33,181 nt of DNA from Planctomycetota bacterium (GTDB taxonomy: Bacteria; Planctomycetota; Phycisphaerae; Phycisphaerales; SM1A02): positions 1 to 33,181 of the forward strand of contig JADFKZ010000011.1 in the NCBI GenBank assembly GCA_022564665.1, written 5' to 3'. The translations under genes were made by a program, and so were the position numbers. Each line of letters begins with the position of its first letter. Within the stretch, counting starts at the first letter, position 1. Positions 504 to 20,589 of this stretch are shown here, piece by piece. The notes beneath the pieces were generated by a model that saw only the letters and a list, made by a program, of their open reading frames with translations, was not told where the DNA came from and ran no database searches.

Positions 504-1088
504 CTATGTGCTTTTGGTTTCGCTTGGCTCTGCGAGCGCGACGGCCAGCCATCGTCGAGCGAACGTCCAGTCCTTGACCACCGTCTTGCGGGAGACTCCC
601 AGGACGCGGGCAACCTCGTCATGCGACAGACCGGCAAAGAAGCGGAGCTCAACGATTCGACTCGCCCGTTCGTTGATCTTCGCCAGCGTGTTCAGTGCTT
701 CGTCCACCTCGCGGATATCGATCTCCCTGGGGCCGGATCGGACAACCAGCTCCAGGGATACCCGCGCATGCCCGAAGCCCCGTTTCAGCGCTCGCCGCTG
801 GCGGGCGTGATCGATGAGTATCTTCCGCATGGCGCCGGCAGCGACAGCCAGGAAATGCTCCTTGCTGTTGAAGGACCCCGGCGGCTGGCCCGCGAGCCGC
901 AGGTAGGCTTCGTTGACCAGGACCGCCGGCTCCAGCAGGTAGTCCACCGCCTCCCGCTTGAGATAGCTCGCCGCCAGCGCCCGCAGATGGTTGTAGACCA
1001 GCGGCATCAGCGCATCGGCCGATGCGGTGGCGCCGAGGTCGCCTGGTATTGCTGCCCCGCTCGGAGGCGTTTCTGGACTCCGCCCCAT
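504..1088 (-). CDS. ECF-type RNA polymerase sigma factor
   Basis: A 194-residue extracytoplasmic-function sigma factor of the small kind amplified in planctomycetes (TIGR02999-like). Region 2 begins at DALMPLVYNHLRALAASYL and continues through LVNEAYLRL and AMRKILIDHARQRRA. Region 4 is at the C-terminus, RIVELRFFAGLSHDEVARVLGVS, with a helix-turn-helix that reads the -35 box. The frame stays open upstream to 1376, but the ATG at 1088 gives the family's usual length and the upstream residues are low-complexity, so I prefer it; no clear ribosome site is visible. No anti-sigma factor gene is adjacent. It lies between the TolC gene and the repeat-protein gene, so it could regulate the export locus, but nothing in the sequence proves this. 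Confidence 0.85.
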   Translation of the reverse strand: MGRSPETPPSGAAIPGDLGATASADALMPLVYNHLRALAASYLKREAVDYLLEPAVLVNEAYLRLAGQPPGSFNSKEHFLAVAAGAMRKILIDHARQRRALKRGFGHARVSLELVVRSGPREIDIREVDEALNTLAKINERASRIVELRFFAGLSHDEVARVLGVSRKTVVKDWTFARRWLAVALAEPSETKST

Positions 1089-1263
1089 TGGTGCTTCGCC
1101 GCTTGGTGGGGTCGCAATCTCGGCTGAGCCCGCCCCACAAGGCCCACGCCAGGATACACCATCGGAGCCGTTGGGCAAAGCCCTGCGCTGGTGTGGCAAG
1201 GGACCCCGGCGGTTCCACCCGCCGCCTCCGGTGCGTGAAATAGTCGGATTTTGAAGCGGTTTT

Positions 1264-1378: not shown

Positions 1379-1672
1379 ATGCCGGAAAAGGACAAGCAAG
1401 AGCAGCCTGACTTCAAGACCGTCGCGGGTGGAACCGGGGACGGCCCCGAGGTTGAGACGGAGCGTCCGGGTAAGTCGAAGCCGGTTGTCGGCTTGACCGC
1501 GGCCGGTACGGGTGACGGACCCGAGTTGGAGACGGAGCGTCCGGGTCGGACGAAGCCGCATCTGGACGTCGGTCTGGTCGCCGGCGGTGCTGCGGATGAC
1601 AGCTCCAGCGTGGAGACGAACCGGCCGAAGATCAAGATCAGGGTCGACGATCCTGACCTGGGAGCAAAATAG
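1379..1672 (+). CDS. small triple-repeat protein, candidate exported peptide precursor
   Basis: A 97-residue acidic, soluble protein with no Cys, no membrane segment and no Sec signal. The ATG at 1379 follows GGAG (1368-1371) with a 7-base spacer, a good ribosome site. After a charged 14-residue start come three repeats: VAGG at 15-18 with ETERPG at 26-31; TAAG at 40-43 with ETERPG at 51-56; VAGG at 67-70 with ETNRPK at 79-84. Repeats one and two share TGDGPE(V/L)ETERPG and near-identical DNA, suggesting recent duplication. C39 peptidases cut after GG or GA, and a C39-peptidase exporter is encoded 3 kb away. The protein may therefore be a precursor with an 18-residue leader and repeated cores. 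I recognise no named family; the precursor role is inference. It could also be an unrelated repeat protein. Confidence 0.7.
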   Translation: MPEKDKQEQPDFKTVAGGTGDGPEVETERPGKSKPVVGLTAAGTGDGPELETERPGRTKPHLDVGLVAGGAADDSSSVETNRPKIKIRVDDPDLGAK

Positions 1673-1880: not shown

Positions 1881-4793
1881 TTACGCGATCTGTCGTTTGA
1901 CAAGCTCGCGGAACACCCCCGGCGTGTCGACCAGCTCCTCGTAGGAGCCTCGCTGGACAACCCGTCCCTTGTCGAGCACGAAGATCCTCTCGGCGTTGAT
2001 GATCGTGCTGAGCCGATGGGCGATGACCACCCTGGTCGCCCGAAGCCGATCAAGGCTCTCTGTGACGATTGCCTGTGTGGGGTTGTCCAGGGCGCTGGTG
2101 GCCTCATCGAAAAAGACGAGGCGTGGCTTGGTCACCAGCGCACGAGCGATCATGAGCCGCTGGCGTTGGCCTCCCGACAGCGTGGACGCGCCCTCAGTGA
2201 TAATCGTGTGCATCCCCATGGGCATCTGCTCGATGTCCTTGGCGAGGCCGGCGAGCTTCGCCGCGTCCCACGCATCGGCCAGAGTGAGGTCGACGGCGGA
2301 GCCGACGATGTTCGTGAAGATATCGCCCGGGAGAAGGTCACCGTTTTGAAGGACGACACCGAGTTGACGACGCAGCTTCCTTGGATCGAGCCCGGAGACA
2401 TCGAAGCCGTCGTAGGCGATCGTCCCCGACTCCGGCTGCTCGAACGCCAGCAGGAGACGTAGGAGCGTGGACTTGCCGCTGCCGGAGGGTCCGACCAGGG
2501 CAACGAACTCTCCTGGTTGGGCGTCGAAGTTGACGTTTGACAGGATGAGCGGGCCATCCGGCTCGTATCGGAAGGTGAGGTTGGAGATCTCGATCCGCCC
2601 CCGCAAGGTGCCCGGATCGGCCTTCCCGGACTCCACTTCGGGCGTGGCGGCCAGTATCGGCTTGAGCCTGGTGTAGAGCGGCACAACGCTCAACATGTTC
2701 ACCGCCGTCGACCCCAGCTGCATCACCCCGGTCAGGAGCATCGTGAAGGCGGCGACGAAGGCGAGGAAGCTGCCCGTCGACAGCTCCGTTGGGCCGTCAC
2801 GGGTGACGAGGAGAAAAATGATCATGGAGGTCAGGGCGGGGAATGACGCGAGGAAGACGGTGAGGTAGTTGGAGATGATTCTCGCCGCGACGTCGAGCCG
2901 CTTCTGATGCGCGAAACGGGCCGCCCACTGGGCAAAGGCCCGATCCTCGGCGGCCGCGACGCGAAGCTTGGCGATCCCGTTGATGAACTGGAGCAGCATG
3001 CCCGTCATCTTGCCATACTCCTCCTCAATCTCTCGCTCGTAGCGAAGCTGGAGGAGCCCGCTGCCGACGATTGCCACCAGCGCGATAAGAACCAGGCCCA
3101 AGGCAGCCAGAGCGATGGGTGGGCTGTAGTAGAAGAGCAGTGCGACGGCAAAGAGCGAGAAGATACTTGAGACGATGGTGGTGATCGCCGACGTCGACAC
3201 CTCGCTCATGATGGTGTCGATGCCCATGGCCCGCGTCCCCAGATCGCCGGCGGTATACCTGGCAAAGAACTTGGTGGGCAGGTTGATGACCCGCTCCCAC
3301 ACGGCCGCCTGCAGGCTGTCCCCGGCGCGGTGCTTTAGTCGGATCAGCGCGATGTTGCGGGTGACCTGCGTCGCGCCGATAGACAGGGCGACCACGATGA
3401 GCACGAGAACGATCTGGGAAAGCTGGGAGTGTTGCACGCCGGGGATAACAACGTTGAAAATGTGCCCGATGGCGAGGGGAGTGACCAGCGCCAGCAGCCC
3501 TCCGAGGGCGCCGATCATGGCCACCATCCGCAGGTCAGGACCGATGTTGCGCGCGGCGAAACGGATCAGGTCGAGGCCCGTCAGCGGCCGGTCGGGCAGG
3601 CAGCGGTAGAAGGCGAACGCCGAGGGATCGAGCCGGCGCGCAACAGCGGCGGTGACCGGCTCCACCGTGCCCTCGGTGACGTCGTGGAGCTTATAGGATG
3701 TCGCTGAGGCCGGAAGAAGGGCCAGGGGCGTGTCGCCGCCGGCCAGGAAGCCCAGCAGCGGGCCACCATCCCGGCGGTACCAGTTGTCGCGCAGCTGAAC
3801 GCGGCGAAGTGCGAACCTGGATGCTTGAGCAATTTCCTCCAGCGGATTCTCCTGGACGCCACCGCGTCTGGCCCTTCCCGGCTCCCTGATCTGGATTCCC
3901 TGTTGGTCACCGACGAGTCGGCAGGCGGCCAACAAGGCGGTCTCGCTGGGGGCGCCCGCTTGGGCCTGACGCCTCCGGGTGAGGACCGACTCGAGATCGG
4001 TGAAGGCGGTCTTCAGCGTGGAGCGGTCGGCTTCGGACTTGGCCTTCAGGCGGCGGCGGGTCATCTCCTGGTTGCGCTGGCGTTGGAGGTCGATCGCCGC
4101 CTCGACCGTGTCATGGAACGCCTCGAGCCCGCGCCAGTAGGCTCCGTCGAGCGTGATTTCGTCTGACCGCTCCGACCTGAGGGTGCACGCGGTCTCGGCC
4201 GTGAGCCAGGCGTCCTTGCCCAGCGGGAAGAGGATGTCACCCTTGATCGTGCCGGGTCCGTCTTGGCTCAGAAAACAGGCCTGCCCCTGAAGAGGCCGCA
4301 GCCAGAGCACGTTCGACTGTGGCTGGGCGCTTTGGCCGGCCTGGAGCAGGCACTCAGACCCGGCGCGAAGGTTCTGCGTCCCGGTTGGAGCGAAGTCGCT
4401 TGCGCACAGTGCGCACACCGCGGCGACCCAACGGTCAACGGCGCCGGCGATGTGTGGGCCGACGGCGGGATCCTCGGCGGCCCTGGCGAGCCGGGCAGCG
4501 GTCAGCCGCGACAGCTGTGCCTCAGCGGATCCGTAGCCCATGATGAGCACGTTGCGCCCCTCGGGATGGGCATGAAAGCCAAAGAGCAGTTGTCCCGACC
4601 TGATCTGCAGCAGGTGCGTCCGCTGGAGGTCGGTGGACCCGTCCTGGCGGGTGATGGTCAAGGCCACGATGTCGATATGCCCCCTGGTGACGAGCCAGAC
4701 CGCCCCCGGGTCCACCAGCGGCAGCGGCGCGTTGCCGCCGGCCGGTGTCGCCGATCCATGCAGGGCAAAGAGCTCGGTGATGACGTCGGTCAT
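1881..4793 (-). CDS. NHLM-type peptide export ABC transporter (permease/ATPase, no peptidase)
   Basis: A 970-residue fusion matching the second ABC subunit of NHLP/NHLM bacteriocin exporters (TIGR03797-like). The first ~400 residues are a soluble region whose role I cannot name. Membrane helices occupy roughly 418-690. The C-terminal ATPase has Walker A GPSGSGKS at 768-775, signature LSGGQ near 97 residues further on, Walker B LVFFDEATSALD and the IAHRLSTI H-loop. It lacks a C39 peptidase, so cleavage would be done by the neighbouring transporter (4814-7012), with which it may form a heterodimer. It is third in an operon, starting 20 bp after that gene's stop. The ATG at 4793 has only a distant AGGA, so translation may depend on coupling. 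Confidence 0.88.
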   Translation of the reverse strand: MTDVITELFALHGSATPAGGNAPLPLVDPGAVWLVTRGHIDIVALTITRQDGSTDLQRTHLLQIRSGQLLFGFHAHPEGRNVLIMGYGSAEAQLSRLTAARLARAAEDPAVGPHIAGAVDRWVAAVCALCASDFAPTGTQNLRAGSECLLQAGQSAQPQSNVLWLRPLQGQACFLSQDGPGTIKGDILFPLGKDAWLTAETACTLRSERSDEITLDGAYWRGLEAFHDTVEAAIDLQRQRNQEMTRRRLKAKSEADRSTLKTAFTDLESVLTRRRQAQAGAPSETALLAACRLVGDQQGIQIREPGRARRGGVQENPLEEIAQASRFALRRVQLRDNWYRRDGGPLLGFLAGGDTPLALLPASATSYKLHDVTEGTVEPVTAAVARRLDPSAFAFYRCLPDRPLTGLDLIRFAARNIGPDLRMVAMIGALGGLLALVTPLAIGHIFNVVIPGVQHSQLSQIVLVLIVVALSIGATQVTRNIALIRLKHRAGDSLQAAVWERVINLPTKFFARYTAGDLGTRAMGIDTIMSEVSTSAITTIVSSIFSLFAVALLFYYSPPIALAALGLVLIALVAIVGSGLLQLRYEREIEEEYGKMTGMLLQFINGIAKLRVAAAEDRAFAQWAARFAHQKRLDVAARIISNYLTVFLASFPALTSMIIFLLVTRDGPTELSTGSFLAFVAAFTMLLTGVMQLGSTAVNMLSVVPLYTRLKPILAATPEVESGKADPGTLRGRIEISNLTFRYEPDGPLILSNVNFDAQPGEFVALVGPSGSGKSTLLRLLLAFEQPESGTIAYDGFDVSGLDPRKLRRQLGVVLQNGDLLPGDIFTNIVGSAVDLTLADAWDAAKLAGLAKDIEQMPMGMHTIITEGASTLSGGQRQRLMIARALVTKPRLVFFDEATSALDNPTQAIVTESLDRLRATRVVIAHRLSTIINAERIFVLDKGRVVQRGSYEELVDTPGVFRELVKRQIA

Positions 4794-4813: not shown

Positions 4814-7012
4814 CTACTCGGTGGTGATCAGCCGGGCATAGAGCCCGTCGGCCTTGATGAGATCCTCGTGAACGCCGCGCTGAGTCACCTTGCCCCGATC
4901 GAGCACGATGATCTCATTGCAGTCGCGAATCGTGCTGAGCCTGTGAGCGACAATCACACAGGTGCATCCCCGCCGCCTGATGTTGTCGTCGACGATCTTC
5001 TCCGTGGCCGCATCCAGCGCACTGGTGGCCTCGTCCATGACGAGCACCGTCGGATCGATCGCCAGGGCGCGGGCGATCTCGAGCCTCTGCCGCTGTCCCC
5101 CGCTGAAATTCCGCGCCCCTTCATCCACGCTGCTGGCATACGCGCCGCGACGGGAGGAGATGTCGTCGTGGATGTGGGCGTCCTTGGCGGCCCGCTGGAT
5201 CGCCTCGTCGGGCAGCGTCGAGTCCCAGAGGGCGAGGTTCTCACGGATCGTTCCCTCGAAGAAGAAGATCTCCTGGTCCACGAGGGCGAAGGAGTTCGCC
5301 AGCAAGCCTCGCGGGTGGGTCTCGCGAGTCTTGCCATCGAAGAGCACCTCGCCTGTCCAGGGGCGGTACAACCCGCTGATCAGCTTGGCCAACGTGGACT
5401 TGCCGCTGCCGGAAGGACCGACCAGGGCGACCCGGTCGCCGGGGGCGAGCTTCAGGCTGAAGTCCTTCAGCAGCGGCTCGTCAAGGCGGCTGTAACCGAA
5501 GGTGACGTTGCGCAGCTCGAGGAACCCGCTCAGCCGGCGTTGCGGAGCGGCGGTCCGCTCAAACCGCTCCTCGGCCAGGATGGGATCGATCTGGTAGTTG
5601 AGGACGTCATCCAGACGCTTCATGTCGCCGGCCAGCTTCTGGACCACCGCGCCGAGGCGGACGAGGTCCTGGATCGGGCGTGAGAAGCTGATGAGCAGCG
5701 ACTGGATCGCCACGAGCATGCCGATGGTGAGCGCGCCATCCATGACCCTGAATCCCCCCACGCCCAGCACGATGGCGGTGGAGAGGAGCGAGAGGGTGAA
5801 GGGAACCGTGTTGACGAACGCGGTCGACACCGCCAGCCGCTGCGCCGCCGCGCTGGACTTGGCCTGGTATCCCGACCAGCGCGCGAAGAAATCGGACTCG
5901 CGAGCCGCTGCCTTGATCGACTCAATGCACTGCACGCCCCCCATCGCGGTGGCCATCAGCTTGCCCGAGTCCTGCAGCATCCGCTGGCTCTCGTCAACCC
6001 GCTTTCGGGCGATGAGCTTCAGCACCAGGAGGTTGACGAGCGAGATCGAGACGCCGATGAGCGTCAGGACCACGTCGTAGCGGAGCATGAGCATCGCGTA
6101 GAAGAAGGCGGTGATGAGCCCGAGCACGCTCGTGGCCAGGTCTCCGGTGAGGACGCTTGCCACCCGCTCGTTCCCGGAGATCCGGTTGGTGATATCACCG
6201 GCGTGCCGCTGCCCGAAGAACTCCATGGGCAGCCGCAGCACGTGCCGGAGAAAACGGCCCGTCGTCGTGATGGCGAGCTTCGTCGACGATCGCATGAGAT
6301 AGTGCTGCTGCAGCGCCGTCAGCACCGCCCGTAGCGCGGCGGCAATGCCGAGACCCAGCACCAGCGGGCCCAGCCACTTCGTCGAGCCGCCAATGAGGAT
6401 CTCGTCGACGAAGATCTTGGAGAAGGTCGGAATCGCCAGCCCGGGAATCACGAGACCCAGCCCGGCCAGCACACAGAACGAAACCGCCATTCGAATGCCG
6501 CGCAGCCGCCCGGCCAGGGCCCTGATCATGCTCGGTCTGCGGCCGCCGCGCTGGAACTCCTTGAGCGGCTCGAAGGTCAATACGATTCCCGACATGCCCC
6601 GGTCGAACTCCTCGTCGGAAACGGTCTTGCGGCCGAACGCGGGATCGTTGAGATAGGCGCGGCGGCGGCGGAAACCCTCCAACACGACGAAATGGTTGAA
6701 GTTCCAGAAGAGGATGCATGGCAGCCGGATCTCGGCGAGCTCGTGGATCTCCATCTTGAAGGCTTCGGCCTTCATCTCATACCGCTCGGCGGCGGCAAGC
6801 ATGTTGGCGGCCTTGCTCCCGTCGCGCGAGACGCCGCAGTCCACCCGCAGCTTCTCCAGCGGAACCCATCGGCCGTAGTGGGCAAGGATGATGCCGAGGG
6901 CGGCGGCGCCGCACTCCGCCGCTTCCATCTGCAGGAGCGTCGGCGTGCAGACCGGCCGTCTCCTGGGAAGCGTGGGTCGCTCGTGTGCCTTAACTTGGGT
7001 CATCTCCTGCAA
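4814..7012 (-). CDS. NHLM-type peptidase-containing ABC transporter (C39 peptidase/permease/ATPase)
   Basis: A 732-residue exporter that removes leader peptides after a double-glycine-type site and moves the product across the inner membrane (TIGR03796-like). The N-terminal C39 peptidase has all catalytic residues: Cys34 in MEAAECGAAALG, His107 in NFNHFVVLEGF and Asp123 in LNDPAFG. Membrane helices follow from about 170 to 460. The ATPase has Walker A GPSGSGKS at 532-539, FSGGQ at 636-640, Walker B VLVMDEATSALD and VAHRLSTI. Start: TTG at 7012 or ATG at 7003. The AGGAG abuts the ATG with no spacer, which favours the TTG or an unusual site, so numbering may shift by three. It lies between the HlyD gene (18 bp upstream) and the partner ABC gene (20 bp downstream). 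Confidence 0.93.
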   Translation of the reverse strand: MQEMTQVKAHERPTLPRRRPVCTPTLLQMEAAECGAAALGIILAHYGRWVPLEKLRVDCGVSRDGSKAANMLAAAERYEMKAEAFKMEIHELAEIRLPCILFWNFNHFVVLEGFRRRRAYLNDPAFGRKTVSDEEFDRGMSGIVLTFEPLKEFQRGGRRPSMIRALAGRLRGIRMAVSFCVLAGLGLVIPGLAIPTFSKIFVDEILIGGSTKWLGPLVLGLGIAAALRAVLTALQQHYLMRSSTKLAITTTGRFLRHVLRLPMEFFGQRHAGDITNRISGNERVASVLTGDLATSVLGLITAFFYAMLMLRYDVVLTLIGVSISLVNLLVLKLIARKRVDESQRMLQDSGKLMATAMGGVQCIESIKAAARESDFFARWSGYQAKSSAAAQRLAVSTAFVNTVPFTLSLLSTAIVLGVGGFRVMDGALTIGMLVAIQSLLISFSRPIQDLVRLGAVVQKLAGDMKRLDDVLNYQIDPILAEERFERTAAPQRRLSGFLELRNVTFGYSRLDEPLLKDFSLKLAPGDRVALVGPSGSGKSTLAKLISGLYRPWTGEVLFDGKTRETHPRGLLANSFALVDQEIFFFEGTIRENLALWDSTLPDEAIQRAAKDAHIHDDISSRRGAYASSVDEGARNFSGGQRQRLEIARALAIDPTVLVMDEATSALDAATEKIVDDNIRRRGCTCVIVAHRLSTIRDCNEIIVLDRGKVTQRGVHEDLIKADGLYARLITTE

Positions 7013-7030: not shown

Positions 7031-8302
7031 TCAGTCGCCACCGAGCTTCTTCCTGGCCATCGGAATGACCAGTTCAATTGGACGGTGCGTATCGACGGTC
7101 ACCGAACCCTTGCACATCGTCCCCGCTGAGATCTTTTGCGGCGGGCCCGACACGGTGCTCCACTGGTATCCGCTGAACGTCGACTCATCGGGGTTCAGCG
7201 ACACGCGCAGCTCCAGGAGCACGCCTATCTCGCGTGTGAAATTCTCCACCAGGTCACTGTCATTGAGAAGCACCAGCATCGCCTGCTTGCTCGTAGGCTT
7301 GCTGTCGACGAAGGAGACCGTCCCCACCATCGATCCGTGCTCCTCCCTCTTGACGGTGGCGGGAGAGATGTGGACCACATCTCCCAACGCAACCCGCCCG
7401 CCGGTCGCGGCCGATACGTACAGGATGGCCTGGAGCCTCTCGGAGGCCGACGCCTCGGGCTGAATGACCAGGATCTCTTCACCAACGCTTACCGTGGTCT
7501 GGACCGCGGCCCGCACCTCGACCACCGTCCCTGCGAAGTGGCACCGTACCTTCGACTCGCGCTCGAGGCGGCGCTGGAGCATCGAGACCTTGCCGGCCAG
7601 CTCATCGAGCATGAGCTTCCGCTCCATCCGCCGCCGCTCGCGCTGAAAGCTCGCCTCTCTGTTCTTGGCAGCCAACTGCTTGATCTGGAGACGCGCTTGC
7701 CTTTCTTGGAGCTTGGTGTCCTCGAGGTCCTCGACCACCTTGTGCAGGTCAAACGGGGTCATCACGCCCTGGTCAACGAGACGGTCGATGATCACCCGCC
7801 GCTCGTTCAGACGGTCGACGCGTTCCTGGGCAAACTCGGCTGTCTGCTCAAGCCGCTGTTTTTCCGTTTCGGCAAGGTTCTTCTGGACTTCCTCCTCGCG
7901 ACGATCGAGCTCCAGGAGCAGCTCGTGCTGGGCCTGCAGCTCTTTGAGGTGCGAGTCCGTCTCGGCCAGTTCGTCCTCGAGGCCGCGCTGGTCGATCGTG
8001 GCGACGATTTGACCTGTGGCGATGTGGTCGCCCACCGACGGAAGAATCTCGGTGAGCCTGCCATTGCCGGGGGACACGACCACCATCAGGCCGCCGCCGG
8101 CCACGATGATCCCCTCGCCCTCTACCGTGCTGGGCACGCGGGCGAGAATCGACCAGGCAATGATCGCCGCCAGCAACGCCCAGATCGCGATCAGCGAGAT
8201 CCAGCCCCTGGGGCTCATCACCTGGAGCAATTGATCCAGCTGTTCGGGCGAGGACAGCCGCTCCAGCGCCGACTCGCGGAACAATCGCTTGGAAACGGAC
8301 AT
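7031..8302 (-). CDS. HlyD-family secretion adaptor of the NHLM export system
   Basis: A 423-residue membrane-fusion protein (TIGR03794-like) linking inner-membrane ABC exporters to an outer-membrane channel. It has a short cytoplasmic N-terminus, one membrane helix at about 34-54, a first lipoyl-like half (around GDHIATGQIVATID), a long coiled coil rich in Glu, Gln and Arg (about 110-250), a second lipoyl half (CHFAGTVVEVRAAVQTTVSVGEEI) and a C-terminal beta-barrel region. The ATG at 8302 is preceded by AGGAG with 9 bases spacing, a strong site. It is the first gene of the hlyD - peptidase ABC - ABC operon; order and lengths match known NHLM secretion loci. Confidence 0.9.
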   Translation of the reverse strand: MSVSKRLFRESALERLSSPEQLDQLLQVMSPRGWISLIAIWALLAAIIAWSILARVPSTVEGEGIIVAGGGLMVVVSPGNGRLTEILPSVGDHIATGQIVATIDQRGLEDELAETDSHLKELQAQHELLLELDRREEEVQKNLAETEKQRLEQTAEFAQERVDRLNERRVIIDRLVDQGVMTPFDLHKVVEDLEDTKLQERQARLQIKQLAAKNREASFQRERRRMERKLMLDELAGKVSMLQRRLERESKVRCHFAGTVVEVRAAVQTTVSVGEEILVIQPEASASERLQAILYVSAATGGRVALGDVVHISPATVKREEHGSMVGTVSFVDSKPTSKQAMLVLLNDSDLVENFTREIGVLLELRVSLNPDESTFSGYQWSTVSGPPQKISAGTMCKGSVTVDTHRPIELVIPMARKKLGGD

Positions 8303-9606: not shown

Positions 9607-11781
<2,175 letters not shown>

Positions 11782-15777: not shown

Positions 15778-16248
15778 GGGTGGCCGGGGACGCGGGCCAA
15801 GCCCGCTCGCTTCAGACACCGAATCGTCCTGGGCAACTGCCGGACTTCTGGTTGTCCTCGCTACGACGTTCATGAATAATCACCGGTCAGGGGTTCAAAA
15901 TCCGGCGATTTATTTGACCCTCGTCGGTTTCGGCGTACCGTTTCGCATTAGATCCGATCGCACGTTGCATCCAGGGGAAAGATTTTCGGTTGGGACCACG
16001 CACGTCGGGGTCCCGTGACCCGGAAATACCCAAGAACCGAAAGCCGTGCGACCCGATCCCAGCCCTGCCGACCGGCAAGCAATGAGCAGGTGTGCGCCGT
16101 TGTGCCCTGACTCGCGGCTGTCGCGAGGCGGAGAAGTCTGTGCCGGCGATCGCGTCGGACGAATCGCGTCGGTTTGCAGGGTGCGGTGGTGCCGGAGTTC
16201 GCAGAGCACCGCTGGGCGTCGGTTCCTGGAACAGGGGATGCATGGGTC
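15778..16248. other. 471-bp spacer between rpmB and dnaG
   Basis: No gene can be supported here. It holds a GC-rich hairpin GCGGGC-CAA-GCCCGC (15792-15806) 14 bases after the rpmB stop but without a T-run, a second small stem GGGTC/GACCC (16008-16021), and an isolated TTGACC (15914-15919) whose -10 partner is weak. The dnaG promoter is presumably in this stretch, but I cannot place it. Confidence 0.5.
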
Positions 16249-18198
16249 GTGTCGGGATCGGTCGGGAACGCTGACATTGAAGTCGTCCGCCAGAGCATCG
16301 ATCTGGTCGCCTTGGTTGCCGAGCAGGTTCAGCTGAGCCCCAAAGGTCGCGAGCATGTCGGCCTCTGTCCCTTTCACGACGACCACACACCGTCGTTCGC
16401 CGTTGTGACCCACAAGGGAAACGCGTTTTACAAGTGTCACGCCTGCGGCGCCGCCGGTGACGTGTTCAGGTTCGTCATGGACTTTCACGGGATGACTTTC
16501 CCCGACGCTCTGCGGCATCTGGCTGATCGGGCGGGCGTGACGCTGTCGCCGCGCCGCCCGAAGGTGGGAACCGATCGTGACCTCGACGTCGTTGAGATCA
16601 GGCGGGCGAATGCCGTCGCTGGCTCCTTCTTTCGGCAGACGCTCAAGCATTCCGCAGACGGTGCGGCGGCGCGGGCGATGATTCGAGACCGCCGGATCAG
16701 CGATCAGATGGTCGAAGCATGGGCGTTGGGAGCCGCGCCGGCGGGCTGGGACAACCTGCTCAAGTTCGCCCAGAGCAAGGGGCTCTCGACCCGGGCGCTT
16801 GTCGCGGCAGGCCTCGTGAAGCCGCGTGCAGAGGGAGAGGGACATTACGACACGTTTCGCAATCGGTTGATCTTTCCGATTTCCGATGACCTGGGCCGCC
16901 CCATTGCTTTTGGCGGTCGGCGGCTCGAGCCCCAAAGCCAGCCCACGACCCACCAAGAGCCCAAATACCTCAATAGCTCCGACAGCATCATCTTTCGCAA
17001 AGGGCGGACGCTCTACGGGCTGCATCTGGCCAGGCGAGCGATCATCGACGCCAACCAGGTGATCGTGACCGAGGGTTACACCGACGCCGTGGCCTGTCAC
17101 CAGGCAGGGTTGCGGCATGTCGTCGCGACACTCGGCACCGCGCTGACACGGGATCACGTTCGGATCCTCAAGCGGCTCTGCGAAGTGGTTGTGCTCGTCT
17201 TCGACGGCGACGAAGCGGGCCTGCGGGCGGCGGATCGGGCCGTCGCGATCTTTTTCGCCGAGCCGGTTGACGTCAAAATCTGCGTGCTGGGCGGGTCGCT
17301 TGATCCGGCGGCCGTGCTGGCCGAAGCAGGGGGGCGGGAGCGGATGGACGCTGCCCTGGCTGACGCCCAGGAAGCCCTGGCGTACAAGGTGAGTCGTTTT
17401 CGCGATCGGCTGGCGACCGCCTCGGGCCTCTCCGGGCGGCAGCGGTCTCTGGAGGACCTGCTGGCCGATCTGGCCGCGCTGGGCTTTGACGCCATGCCCG
17501 GGGTTCGAAAGCGACCCGTCATGACGCAGTTGGCCGACCTGCTGGGGCTGCGGATTGAAGATATAGACCAAGCGATGAGGCGGCTGAGGCGACCCGCGGC
17601 GGGCCCCGCCGGTGAGCGGTTCGCGGCTGCGGGTCAGCCGATTTCCCAGGTTCCGCCGGAAACGGAGCCGGCCGATGAACGCCAAGAGGCGGCGTGCACG
17701 CCCGCCCGGCGCCGCGCTGAGCAGGAGCTTCTGGGGGTGCTGATCTACCAGCCTTCGCTTCGGACGCAGCCGGTCGCGGGTCCGGACGGGCGCGCCCTTC
17801 CCGTCACCCGGCTCATTCGCCCCGAAGAGTTCCGCGACCCCGCCGCCGGCGCGATCGCCGAGATCGTGTTTGGGTGGCTGGACGACGAGGTGGACTTCTC
17901 CATGGGGCAGCTGATGGGACGGCTTGAGAGTCCGGGGCTTCGGAGCCTTGCCGCCGAGCTTTACGACGAGGCCCGGCGCCGCTGCGGCGGCGAACGCCCA
18001 GCCGCGGATGTCCTCTGCGACGCGGGCTCGGCTTTGGCGAAACTTTTGGGCCGCGAGCAATTCAAGCAGGACCTTGACGCCTATCGTGAGAGCACGCCCC
18101 AGCGAGGTCGCCGCGCAAGCGCCCTCCACGACATACTCGAGAAACGGCGAAAGCAGGGGTACATCCCCGAGGCGATGCCCTCGCGGTTGCGAACCTAG
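16249..18198 (+). CDS. dnaG: DNA primase
   Basis: A 649-residue enzyme that synthesises RNA primers at the replication fork. The zinc-binding domain has Cys40, His43, Cys63 and Cys66 (CPFH ... CHACG). The catalytic TOPRIM core shows [16 protein letters not shown] and [17 protein letters not shown] with the acidic metal ligands. The helicase-interaction C-terminal third is divergent. Start: no ATG is available. GTG at 16249 puts the zinc Cys at residue 40, as in known primases; the frame also has a TTG at 16174. It lies 53 bp upstream of rpoD, the classical macromolecular-synthesis pairing, without rpsU. Confidence 0.95.
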
Positions 18199-18251
18199 AT
18201 GTGTACTCGAACCGGGATCATTGCGGTACTGAAGATGATGGAGCAGAAACA

Positions 18252-20117
18252 GTGAGCGCAATCCTTTCCGACGTGCATCCGACACTCCGGGAGCTGATCG
18301 AGCTCAGCAAGAAGCGCAAGTGGATAAGCTACGACGAGCTCAACACCGCGCTGCCGGACGAGATGGTCGATCCCGAGAAGCTCGATGAGTTGCTCAGCTC
18401 GATCGAGGATCTCGGTGTTGAGTTCATCAACGAGGAGATCGTCCGCCGGCACGACTATCAGACGTTTCAGGCGCCGCTCCAGACCAACCTCAAGTTCAAG
18501 CGGGATGATCCGAGCAAGGGGGTGTCGATCCCCAAGGTCCGGATTGAGCAGGAGGAAGCCGCCGGCGAATATCCCATCGCGAGCGAGATGGCCCACCCCC
18601 AGCGGCGGCGCGACTCGGAAAGCCTCGGCGAGGCGGAGGCCCGCGGTGTCATCGAGGACGCGGTCGACGAGAATGAATCCAAGAGGATTGATGATCCGAT
18701 TCGAATGTACCTCACGCAGATGGGGACGATTCCTCTGCTGACCCGGGAGCAGGAGATCCGGCTGGCGAAAAAGATCGAGAGCACGCGGATGATCTTCCGG
18801 CGCCGCGTGCTTGAGTCGAACTACGCCTCGGCACAGGCCGTGGCCACGCTGCAGCAGGTTCACAAGGGGAGCCTGCCTTTTGACAGAACCATGCGTATCT
18901 CCACGGCGGAGGAGAACGCCAAGGCCAAGATCGCGGCACGTATCCCGGTGAATCTCGCGACGGTCCGCCGCCTGCTGGAGCTGAACAACCGCGCGTGGCA
19001 GGAGCTCCAGGAGGGTCGTACGTCGCCCGCTCAGCGGGAAGCGACCAAACGCGAGATGGCCTCCCGCCGCCGCAAGGGTGCGACGCTGCTGGAAGAGTGC
19101 TGTCTTCGGACTGCCAAGATTCAGCCGCTGTTCCGCAAGCTGCAGGCGATCAACAAGAAGCTCAAGGAGCTTCAGCGCGAGCTCGAGCGGGCCCGAAAGT
19201 CGCCGGAGAAGTATGACCCGGAGGACCTCTGTGTGGTGAAGGAGGAGTTGGACGGCCTGCGCGGCCTGGTTCTCGACGAGCCTGATGAGATTGATCGGCG
19301 GGTCGGCCAGATCAAACGGGTCTTCGATGAGTATGAGCAGGCCAAGCGCGATCTTTCCGCCGGCAACCTCCGTCTGGTCGTTTCCATCGCCAAGAAGTAT
19401 CGCAACCGCGGCCTGCCGTTCCTGGACATCATTCAGGAGGGCAACACCGGGCTGATGCGGGCCGTGGACAAGTACGAGTACAAGCGCGGGTACAAGTTCT
19501 CCACCTACGCCACCTGGTGGATCCGCCAGGCCATCACCAGGGCCATCGCCGATCATGCCCGGACCATCCGCGTTCCGGTGCACATGATTGAGACGATGTC
19601 CAAGCTTCGCACCATTCAGAAACAGCTCGTGCAGGAGATCGGTCGCGAGCCGACCATGATCGAGATCGCCGAACGCGCCCAGATGTCGGTTGACGAGACC
19701 CGGCGGGTCATGAAGATTTCCCGCCATCCCGTCAGTCTGGACCGGCCGGTCGGTGAGTCGGAGGATTCCCATTTCGGTGACTTCATCGAGGACGAGCGTC
19801 AAGAGGCGCCCTCGGAGTCCGCAACAAGCGACATGCTTCGGGCACGGATCAACGACATCCTCAAGACGCTGACCTACCGCGAGCGCGAGATCCTCAAGCT
19901 TCGCTACGGCATCGGTGACGGCTACACCTACACGCTGGAAGAGGTGGGCCGGATCTTCAAGGTCACGCGGGAACGGGTGAGGCAGGTGGAGTCCAAGGCC
20001 ATCCGCAAGCTCCAGCACCCCGTCCGCAAGACCCGCTTGGAGAGCTTTCTCGCCGGGTATTCCGACGAGCATGCGGGCAGGGCAGCGCCGGAGACCCTCC
20101 GCGGCCCCCCGCGGTGA
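18252..20117 (+). CDS. rpoD: primary RNA polymerase sigma factor (sigma-70/RpoD)
   Basis: A 621-residue housekeeping sigma factor. Region 1.1 is at the start ([20 protein letters not shown]), region 1.2 is [22 protein letters not shown], then a non-conserved charged insert. Region 2 is [20 protein letters not shown] through [17 protein letters not shown], region 3 is [14 protein letters not shown], and region 4 is [14 protein letters not shown] with the [22 protein letters not shown]. The GTG at 18252 is preferred over the GTG at 18201 because GGAG (18240-18243) lies 8 bases before it and region 1.1 begins there. The last codons and stop lie within a dispersed spacer repeat (20097-20120), so the terminal residues RGPPR are repeat-encoded. 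Confidence 0.97.
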
Positions 20118-20120
20118 ATC
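20097..20120. repeat. CCGCGG-type dispersed spacer repeat, copy 3, within the rpoD end
   Basis: Same element as 458-484 (23 of 24 bases identical), here covering the last six codons of rpoD plus its TGA stop (20115-20117). Confidence 0.6.
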
Positions 20121-20154
20121 GTTGAAGACGCTTTTTTCTTGCGGGAGACAAGCC

Positions 20155-20589
20155 ATGGCCCAAGAGCGCTCCACGGCGACCGCCAAGGCGCTGGGCGATG
20201 TCGAAGGACACGACGGCATCTCCGTCATTCCAAAGCACGGCAACTGCCGGGATTGGAACGGCATCCAGTACCGCGCTGGTCTCGGGGCACGAAACGTCGG
20301 CTCCAAACACCTGTCCATGAACGTCGCGACGATTCCGCCGGGAGGAGTCGCCTACGCCCACATCCATGTCGGCTTCGAGGTGATGCTCTACATCATGGCG
20401 GGCCGTGTCCGGCACGCCTATGGCCCCGGGCTCGCGCACTCGGTTGAGAACGCCGCCGGCGACTTCATCTTCATCGAGCCCGGCGTGCCGCATGAGGTTT
20501 ACAACCTCTCCCAGACTGAGCCGGTCGTTGCGGTCGTGGCACGATCCGCCGCCGATGAGTGGGAGCGGATCGCCCCGTACAAGAAATAG
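20155..20589 (+). CDS. cupin-domain protein
   Basis: A 144-residue single-domain cupin. The first cupin motif is at 62-82 (PPGGVAYAHIHVGFE) with metal ligands His69, His71 and Glu75; the second contributes His113 in PGVPHEVYN. Such proteins bind a metal and act as small isomerases, dioxygenases or sugar/ligand sensors; the substrate cannot be read from sequence. The ATG at 20155 follows GGGAG with about 7 bases spacing. It lies 37 bp after rpoD with no visible terminator, so it may be co-transcribed, but no functional link is known. Confidence 0.85.
   Translation: MAQERSTATAKALGDVEGHDGISVIPKHGNCRDWNGIQYRAGLGARNVGSKHLSMNVATIPPGGVAYAHIHVGFEVMLYIMAGRVRHAYGPGLAHSVENAAGDFIFIEPGVPHEVYNLSQTEPVVAVVARSAADEWERIAPYKK

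Follow-up and report, generated by a model that had tools for sequence, protein, structure and literature searches.

A short-leader repeat protein beside a planctomycete NHLM-type exporter is a candidate multi-core prepropeptide

Peptidase-containing ABC exporters are thought to remove one leader from one peptide. Class II microcins and bacteriocins carry a leader of 15-18 residues with an acidic residue at -8, a hydrophobic residue at -7, Val at -4 and a final GG; they have one core, usually larger or hydrophobic, and one cut. Multi-core precursors are known among the graspetides. The described substrates of NHLM/NHLP export systems have long nitrile-hydratase-like or Nif11 leaders, often with tailoring enzymes (PMC2887384). 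The C39 peptidase LahT, which belongs to a RiPP exporter and tolerates varied substrates, takes a single leader off each precursor; LahT150 requires Val, Leu or Ile at -4 and tolerates Thr, takes Leu but no charged residue at -7, prefers Leu at -12, is otherwise permissive, and accepts GG, GA and GS as cleavage sites (PMC6363468). In graspetides, cyanobactins and fungal Kex2-processed repeat proteins, several peptides come from one repeat protein through cuts by a separate protease (PMC7329392).

We analysed a stretch of 33,181 nucleotides (the window) from a 3.06-Mb draft genome. The window encodes, on the minus strand, a complete NHLM exporter: ABC2, a permease/ATPase without peptidase (1881-4793; TIGR03797, 912 bits, cut-off 709), ABC1 with an N-terminal C39 peptidase (4814-7012; TIGR03796, 1073 bits, cut-off 853) and a HlyD-type NHLM secretion protein (7031-8302; TIGR03794, 295 bits, cut-off 156). 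All three lie above the NCBIfam cut-offs, confirming the exporter type proposed in the initial annotation. The nearest solved structure to the C39 domain of ABC1 is LahT150 (PDB 6mpz), with 55% identity and the catalytic residues (Cys, His and Asp) aligned. Among named genomes, those closest by their exporter are Planctomycetota MAGs, one of them labelled Phycisphaeraceae, which suggests that the source genome belongs to Phycisphaerales.

Convergent with the ABC2-ABC1-HlyD operon and adjoining it is a plus-strand ORF of 97 aa (1379-1672; ATG at 1379, stop at 1670-1672), here called the precursor. A terminator-like hairpin with a 9-bp stem (1713-1733) lies between the two and is likely a terminator shared by them. 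On the other side of the precursor gene are an ECF sigma factor gene of uncertain start (504-1148, minus strand; PF07638 Sigma70_ECF, 145.6 bits) and the C-terminal part of a gene for a TolC-type outer-membrane efflux protein, cut by the contig end (1-426, plus strand; PF02321 OEP, 50 bits). Elsewhere in the window, the scanned genes have housekeeping or unrelated functions (TrpA, type III glutamine synthetase, trigger factor, ClpX, multicopper oxidase and others). The very long ORFs at 15910-20318 (minus strand) run antisense to likely coding genes; they have no Pfam match and are high-GC artefacts.

Codon use favours the reading frame of the precursor (log-odds +20.6 vs +7.5 or below in the other frames), and an RBS-like GGAG precedes the ATG. 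The protein consists of an 18-residue leader, MPEKDKQEQPDFKTVAGG (residues 1-18, 1379-1432), and three units. Unit 1, TGDGPEVETERPGKSKPVVGLTAAG, has 25 residues and ends in LTAAG (residues 19-43, 1433-1507); unit 2, TGDGPELETERPGRTKPHLDVGLVAGG, has 27 residues and ends in DVGLVAGG (residues 44-70, 1508-1588); and the C-terminal unit 3, AADDSSSVETNRPKIKIRVDDPDLGAK, also has 27 residues (residues 71-97, 1589-1669). The units contain ETERP, ETERP and ETNRP, respectively. The tandem repeats seen in the initial annotation are real, since units 1 and 2 also form a direct repeat at the DNA level (61 nt, 82% identity, 75-nt spacing); the lengths of 25 and 27 residues hold as well, and the second unit, given as 28, has 27. 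In the conserved TGDGPE block of the repeat four codons differ, all synonymously, as selection on the protein would predict; the protein sequence of the repeat thus seems to be kept. The precursor has no Cys, as had been remarked, and a net charge of -5.

The leader ends in DFKTVAGG (residues 11-18), with F at -7, V at -4 and GG at -2/-1. The first AGG therefore closes a canonical short double-glycine leader, as initially proposed, within the range of such leaders (about 15-25 aa, hydrophobic -7 and -4, GG/GA/GS at -2/-1); it matches the short leaders of relatives and the LahT150 rules for -4 and -7 (PMC6363468). The precursor (P0001) has no match to Pfam or NCBIfam, including the NHLP and Nif11 leader models TIGR03793 and TIGR03798 and curated class II models such as PF10439. 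The leader is short and microcin-like, of neither NHLP nor Nif11 type. The locus thus resembles described NHLM/NHLP systems in its exporter genes and adjoining GG-leader precursor, and differs from them in the 18-aa leader and the repeated cores and in that no tailoring enzyme was found. With the class II systems it shares the short leader and a C39 exporter with HlyD and TolC, but its exporter is of the two-ABC NHLM type.

We consider it very likely that the 97-aa protein is the substrate of the adjoining exporter. A search of 61 relatives gave no convincing homologue (the best match, 18 bits, contains stops), and the lack of a homologue by sequence outside the source genome would suit a chance neighbour whose AGG motif is accidental. 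Such a coincidence is highly improbable given the distribution of short-leader ORFs: across 61 loci, which include near relatives so that the counts are not of independent events, the 261 kb lying within 2.5 kb of NHLM-type exporters hold 26 such ORFs vs 2 in the other 368 kb, an 18-fold enrichment. Analogous precursors also hold a conserved position among the closest relatives of the exporter, as follows.

Relatives of the exporter, sought with TIGR03797 over the family, order, phylum and class, comprised five further close exporters (L055, L056, L185, L186 and L187), which form one clade with that of the window (support 100). L056 ends at a contig end, so the flank is readable in the window and the four other loci only. 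Repeated-motif precursors occur at the same place in all five readable loci, the window included (4/4 of the others), the clade being small (six loci) and the arrays partly found by eye. L186 and L187 have the gene order of the window, TolC(+), ECF(-), precursor(+), ABC2(-), ABC1(-), HlyD(-), their TolC genes matching the TolC-type gene of the window in place and strand; L055 and L185 show this order with small changes. The ECF sigma factor gene likewise keeps its place in L055 (matching PF07638) and, as judged by inspecting the sequences, in L185, L186 and L187.

The precursors themselves are diverse. In L055 (genome G019) the first has 118 aa, with MTDRKKPTDLTKVSGG and repeats carrying ATAAG, ATAGG or ATTGG; a precursor-like protein of 212 aa (10835-11473, minus strand) consists of about nine units, mostly ending in LGxTSGG (LGATSGG) or LGVRGG. 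The latter protein is strongly basic and is the largest array seen. L185 (genome G249) encodes a 168-aa precursor with the junctions ASGG, KTDAHSIVGG and KTDAQNIVGG (KTDAxxIVGG-SKNPAE repeats), and a second, single-core peptide with DLRSVSGG followed by 27 aa. Unit 3 of the window aligns locally to this 27-aa core with a score of 32, reached by 8 of 1000 shuffles; as the best of 30 comparisons, this nominal likeness is suggestive only. The L186 and L187 precursors (93 and 98 aa) have conserved blocks at three motif sites (SASGR, AATGS/N and SGA). Across the clade the cores are hydrophilic and almost without Cys, and cationic in most of the relatives. Searches of the clade genomes with P0002 and P0003 returned self-matches only, so what links the precursors is their design and position more than any sequence identity that can be detected. 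Of the motifs that the initial annotation expected to be conserved, those of GG type are kept in the relatives and ETERP is not. No NHLP- or Nif11-leader protein, and hence no rival substrate, was detected in the six clade genomes, a negative that is weak for TIGR03793 since this model was silent in all controls as well, leaving absence unproven.

The 32 GG sites pooled from nine precursors have a hydrophobic residue at -7 in 17 cases and at -4 in 15, over a background of 12.7%. Only these positions, two of the three recognised by LahT150, clearly exceed the hydrophobic background; -12 is hydrophobic in 5/32 and not enriched, so that the Leu preferred there by LahT is not kept. With first sites excluded, the remaining 24 internal sites, drawn from the clade arrays and one more distant locus, are hydrophobic at -7 in 11 cases and at -4 in 10, and 0 of 5000 permutations were as high. 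Internal GG sites thus resemble leader ends, some of those in L055 being without a hydrophobic -7. In the window, site 1 (F-7, V-4, GG) and site 3 (V-7, V-4, GG) fit the C39 pattern, and the degenerate site 2, VVGLTAAG (V-7, T-4, AG), is a poorer fit without Gly at -2; cuts are therefore expected after residues 18 and 70. Accordingly, of the AGG or AAG motifs said to open each repeat, the second is not a true double-glycine site, unlike the first and third. The idea of a multi-core precursor survives, backed by the analogous arrays in all readable sister loci and the C39 pattern at internal GG sites; cleavage at all three motifs and release of exactly three peptides lack such support.

The degenerate site 2 would also suit a single cut, in which only the 18-residue leader is removed, one 79-residue disordered repeat protein is secreted, for example as a surface or matrix component, and the internal GG motifs are relics of a duplicated leader-core junction. 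The repeats do look like tandem duplications, and repeats can arise by duplication and stay for other reasons; many relatives have one core only, and AlphaFold predicts no secondary structure for the precursor alone (single sequence, mean pLDDT 60.5). We nevertheless regard a single cut as unlikely, because the internal -7/-4 pattern is kept across divergent arrays and because the motif blocks of L186 and L187 are conserved while the stretches between them vary in sequence and length: the two precursors are identical at 27 of 30 positions in the 10 residues before each of the three motif sites, picked by eye, and at 33 of 68 elsewhere. Cutting at internal sites is likely, as we infer from these patterns.

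The initial annotation pointed to Thr and Glu side chains as candidates for modification, and the repeats do contain both. Given the precedent of multi-core graspetides, the precursor could belong to a graspetide-like RiPP whose Thr and Glu side chains are linked by an enzyme encoded elsewhere. Genes for ATP-grasp, LanM, cyclodehydratase or radical-SAM enzymes were absent from the scanned genes of the window and from the scanned neighbours in L055, L185, L186 and L187, and the Thr/Glu spacing is not kept in the relatives. A modified product is thus very improbable; with no enzyme found nearby, the modification idea lacks support, and the graspetide idea was dropped.

Beyond the clade, distant planctomycete NHLM-type loci encode tiny single-core precursors with a similar short leader, e.g. 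MTNSKKLTAADLAKVQGG, MAEAKKPKKLSADDMKKVAGG and KLSDADLEKASGG; their genes often converge on the 3' end of the exporter operon. L210 encodes two precursors with a second internal site (VDLGNVVGG; LQKIDGG), and a relative, L060, gives only a weak match to a curated class II model (18.3 bits against 27.1). The same scans showed no similar array at NHLM loci of other phyla (L077-L154). Other small ORFs were observed in passing. L068 (96-1075, plus strand) and L217 (14501-16860, minus strand) hold, adjoining an NHLM-type exporter, tandem families of small precursors that share a longer leader, MDVKVVENADxCVHIT...DLSDDELSNAAGG, and vary in their short cores. In L207 (1584-3224, minus strand), also next to an NHLM exporter, a 17-aa leader, MAESELSELELDLVAGG, precedes cores of 3-12 residues in several tiny ORFs, and some of these cores contain Cys. 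A GG-leader ORF in L204 (113-355, minus strand) has a core made of an Arg run followed by Asp/Gly-rich repeats, and one from Holophagales in L101 (15274-15495, minus strand) has a lanthipeptide-like core of repeated T-S/T-G-T-C.

What the computation shows is the exporter and the leader motif, the repeat within the precursor, the conservation of the neighbourhood and an internal recognition pattern that recurs in the exporter clade. On this basis we favour the reading that the 97-aa ORF probably encodes an exported multi-core prepropeptide, which the C39 peptidase would cut at the leader and probably also at sites further in. The precursor gene would form a transcription unit of its own that converges on the exporter operon. 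The N-terminal 18 residues of the protein would dock in the groove of the ABC1 C39 peptidase and be cut off after VAGG, with the remainder leaving through the complex of ABC1 and ABC2 together with HlyD and TolC. Since the recognition element, with hydrophobic residues at -7 and -4 and small ones where the cut falls, is repeated inside the protein, the peptidase could cut again and so release hydrophilic, unstructured peptides without modification, two or three in number and about 25-27 residues long; were site 2 to stay uncut, one product would be a 52-residue double unit. As to their role, which we infer from sequence and context, the peptides would most likely serve short-range competition or signalling, a signalling or matrix role being as likely as killing. 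Among the annotated neighbours of the precursor no candidate immunity gene was seen, a mild argument against a classical bacteriocin.

It is somewhat better than an even bet that Planctomycetota with Phycisphaerales-type genomes possess a class of GG-array prepropeptides, in which unmodified hydrophilic peptides stand head to tail with the C39 signal of the exporter as separator, and one transporter frees and exports the whole set. Known multi-core precursors rely on a separate protease, whereas in this array what is repeated is the signal for the peptidase of the exporter itself. Among the papers listed for combinations of NHLM, planctomycete and multi-core, no title or abstract describes such arrays. 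The GG-array signal is a simple motif for finding more precursors of this kind, and it suggests what many orphan NHLM exporters of planctomycetes are likely to carry, in a phylum with little-studied peptide secretion. If the array is cut, an exporter of this kind would be able to process polyproteins as it transports them, with a bearing on how such transporters handle their substrates.
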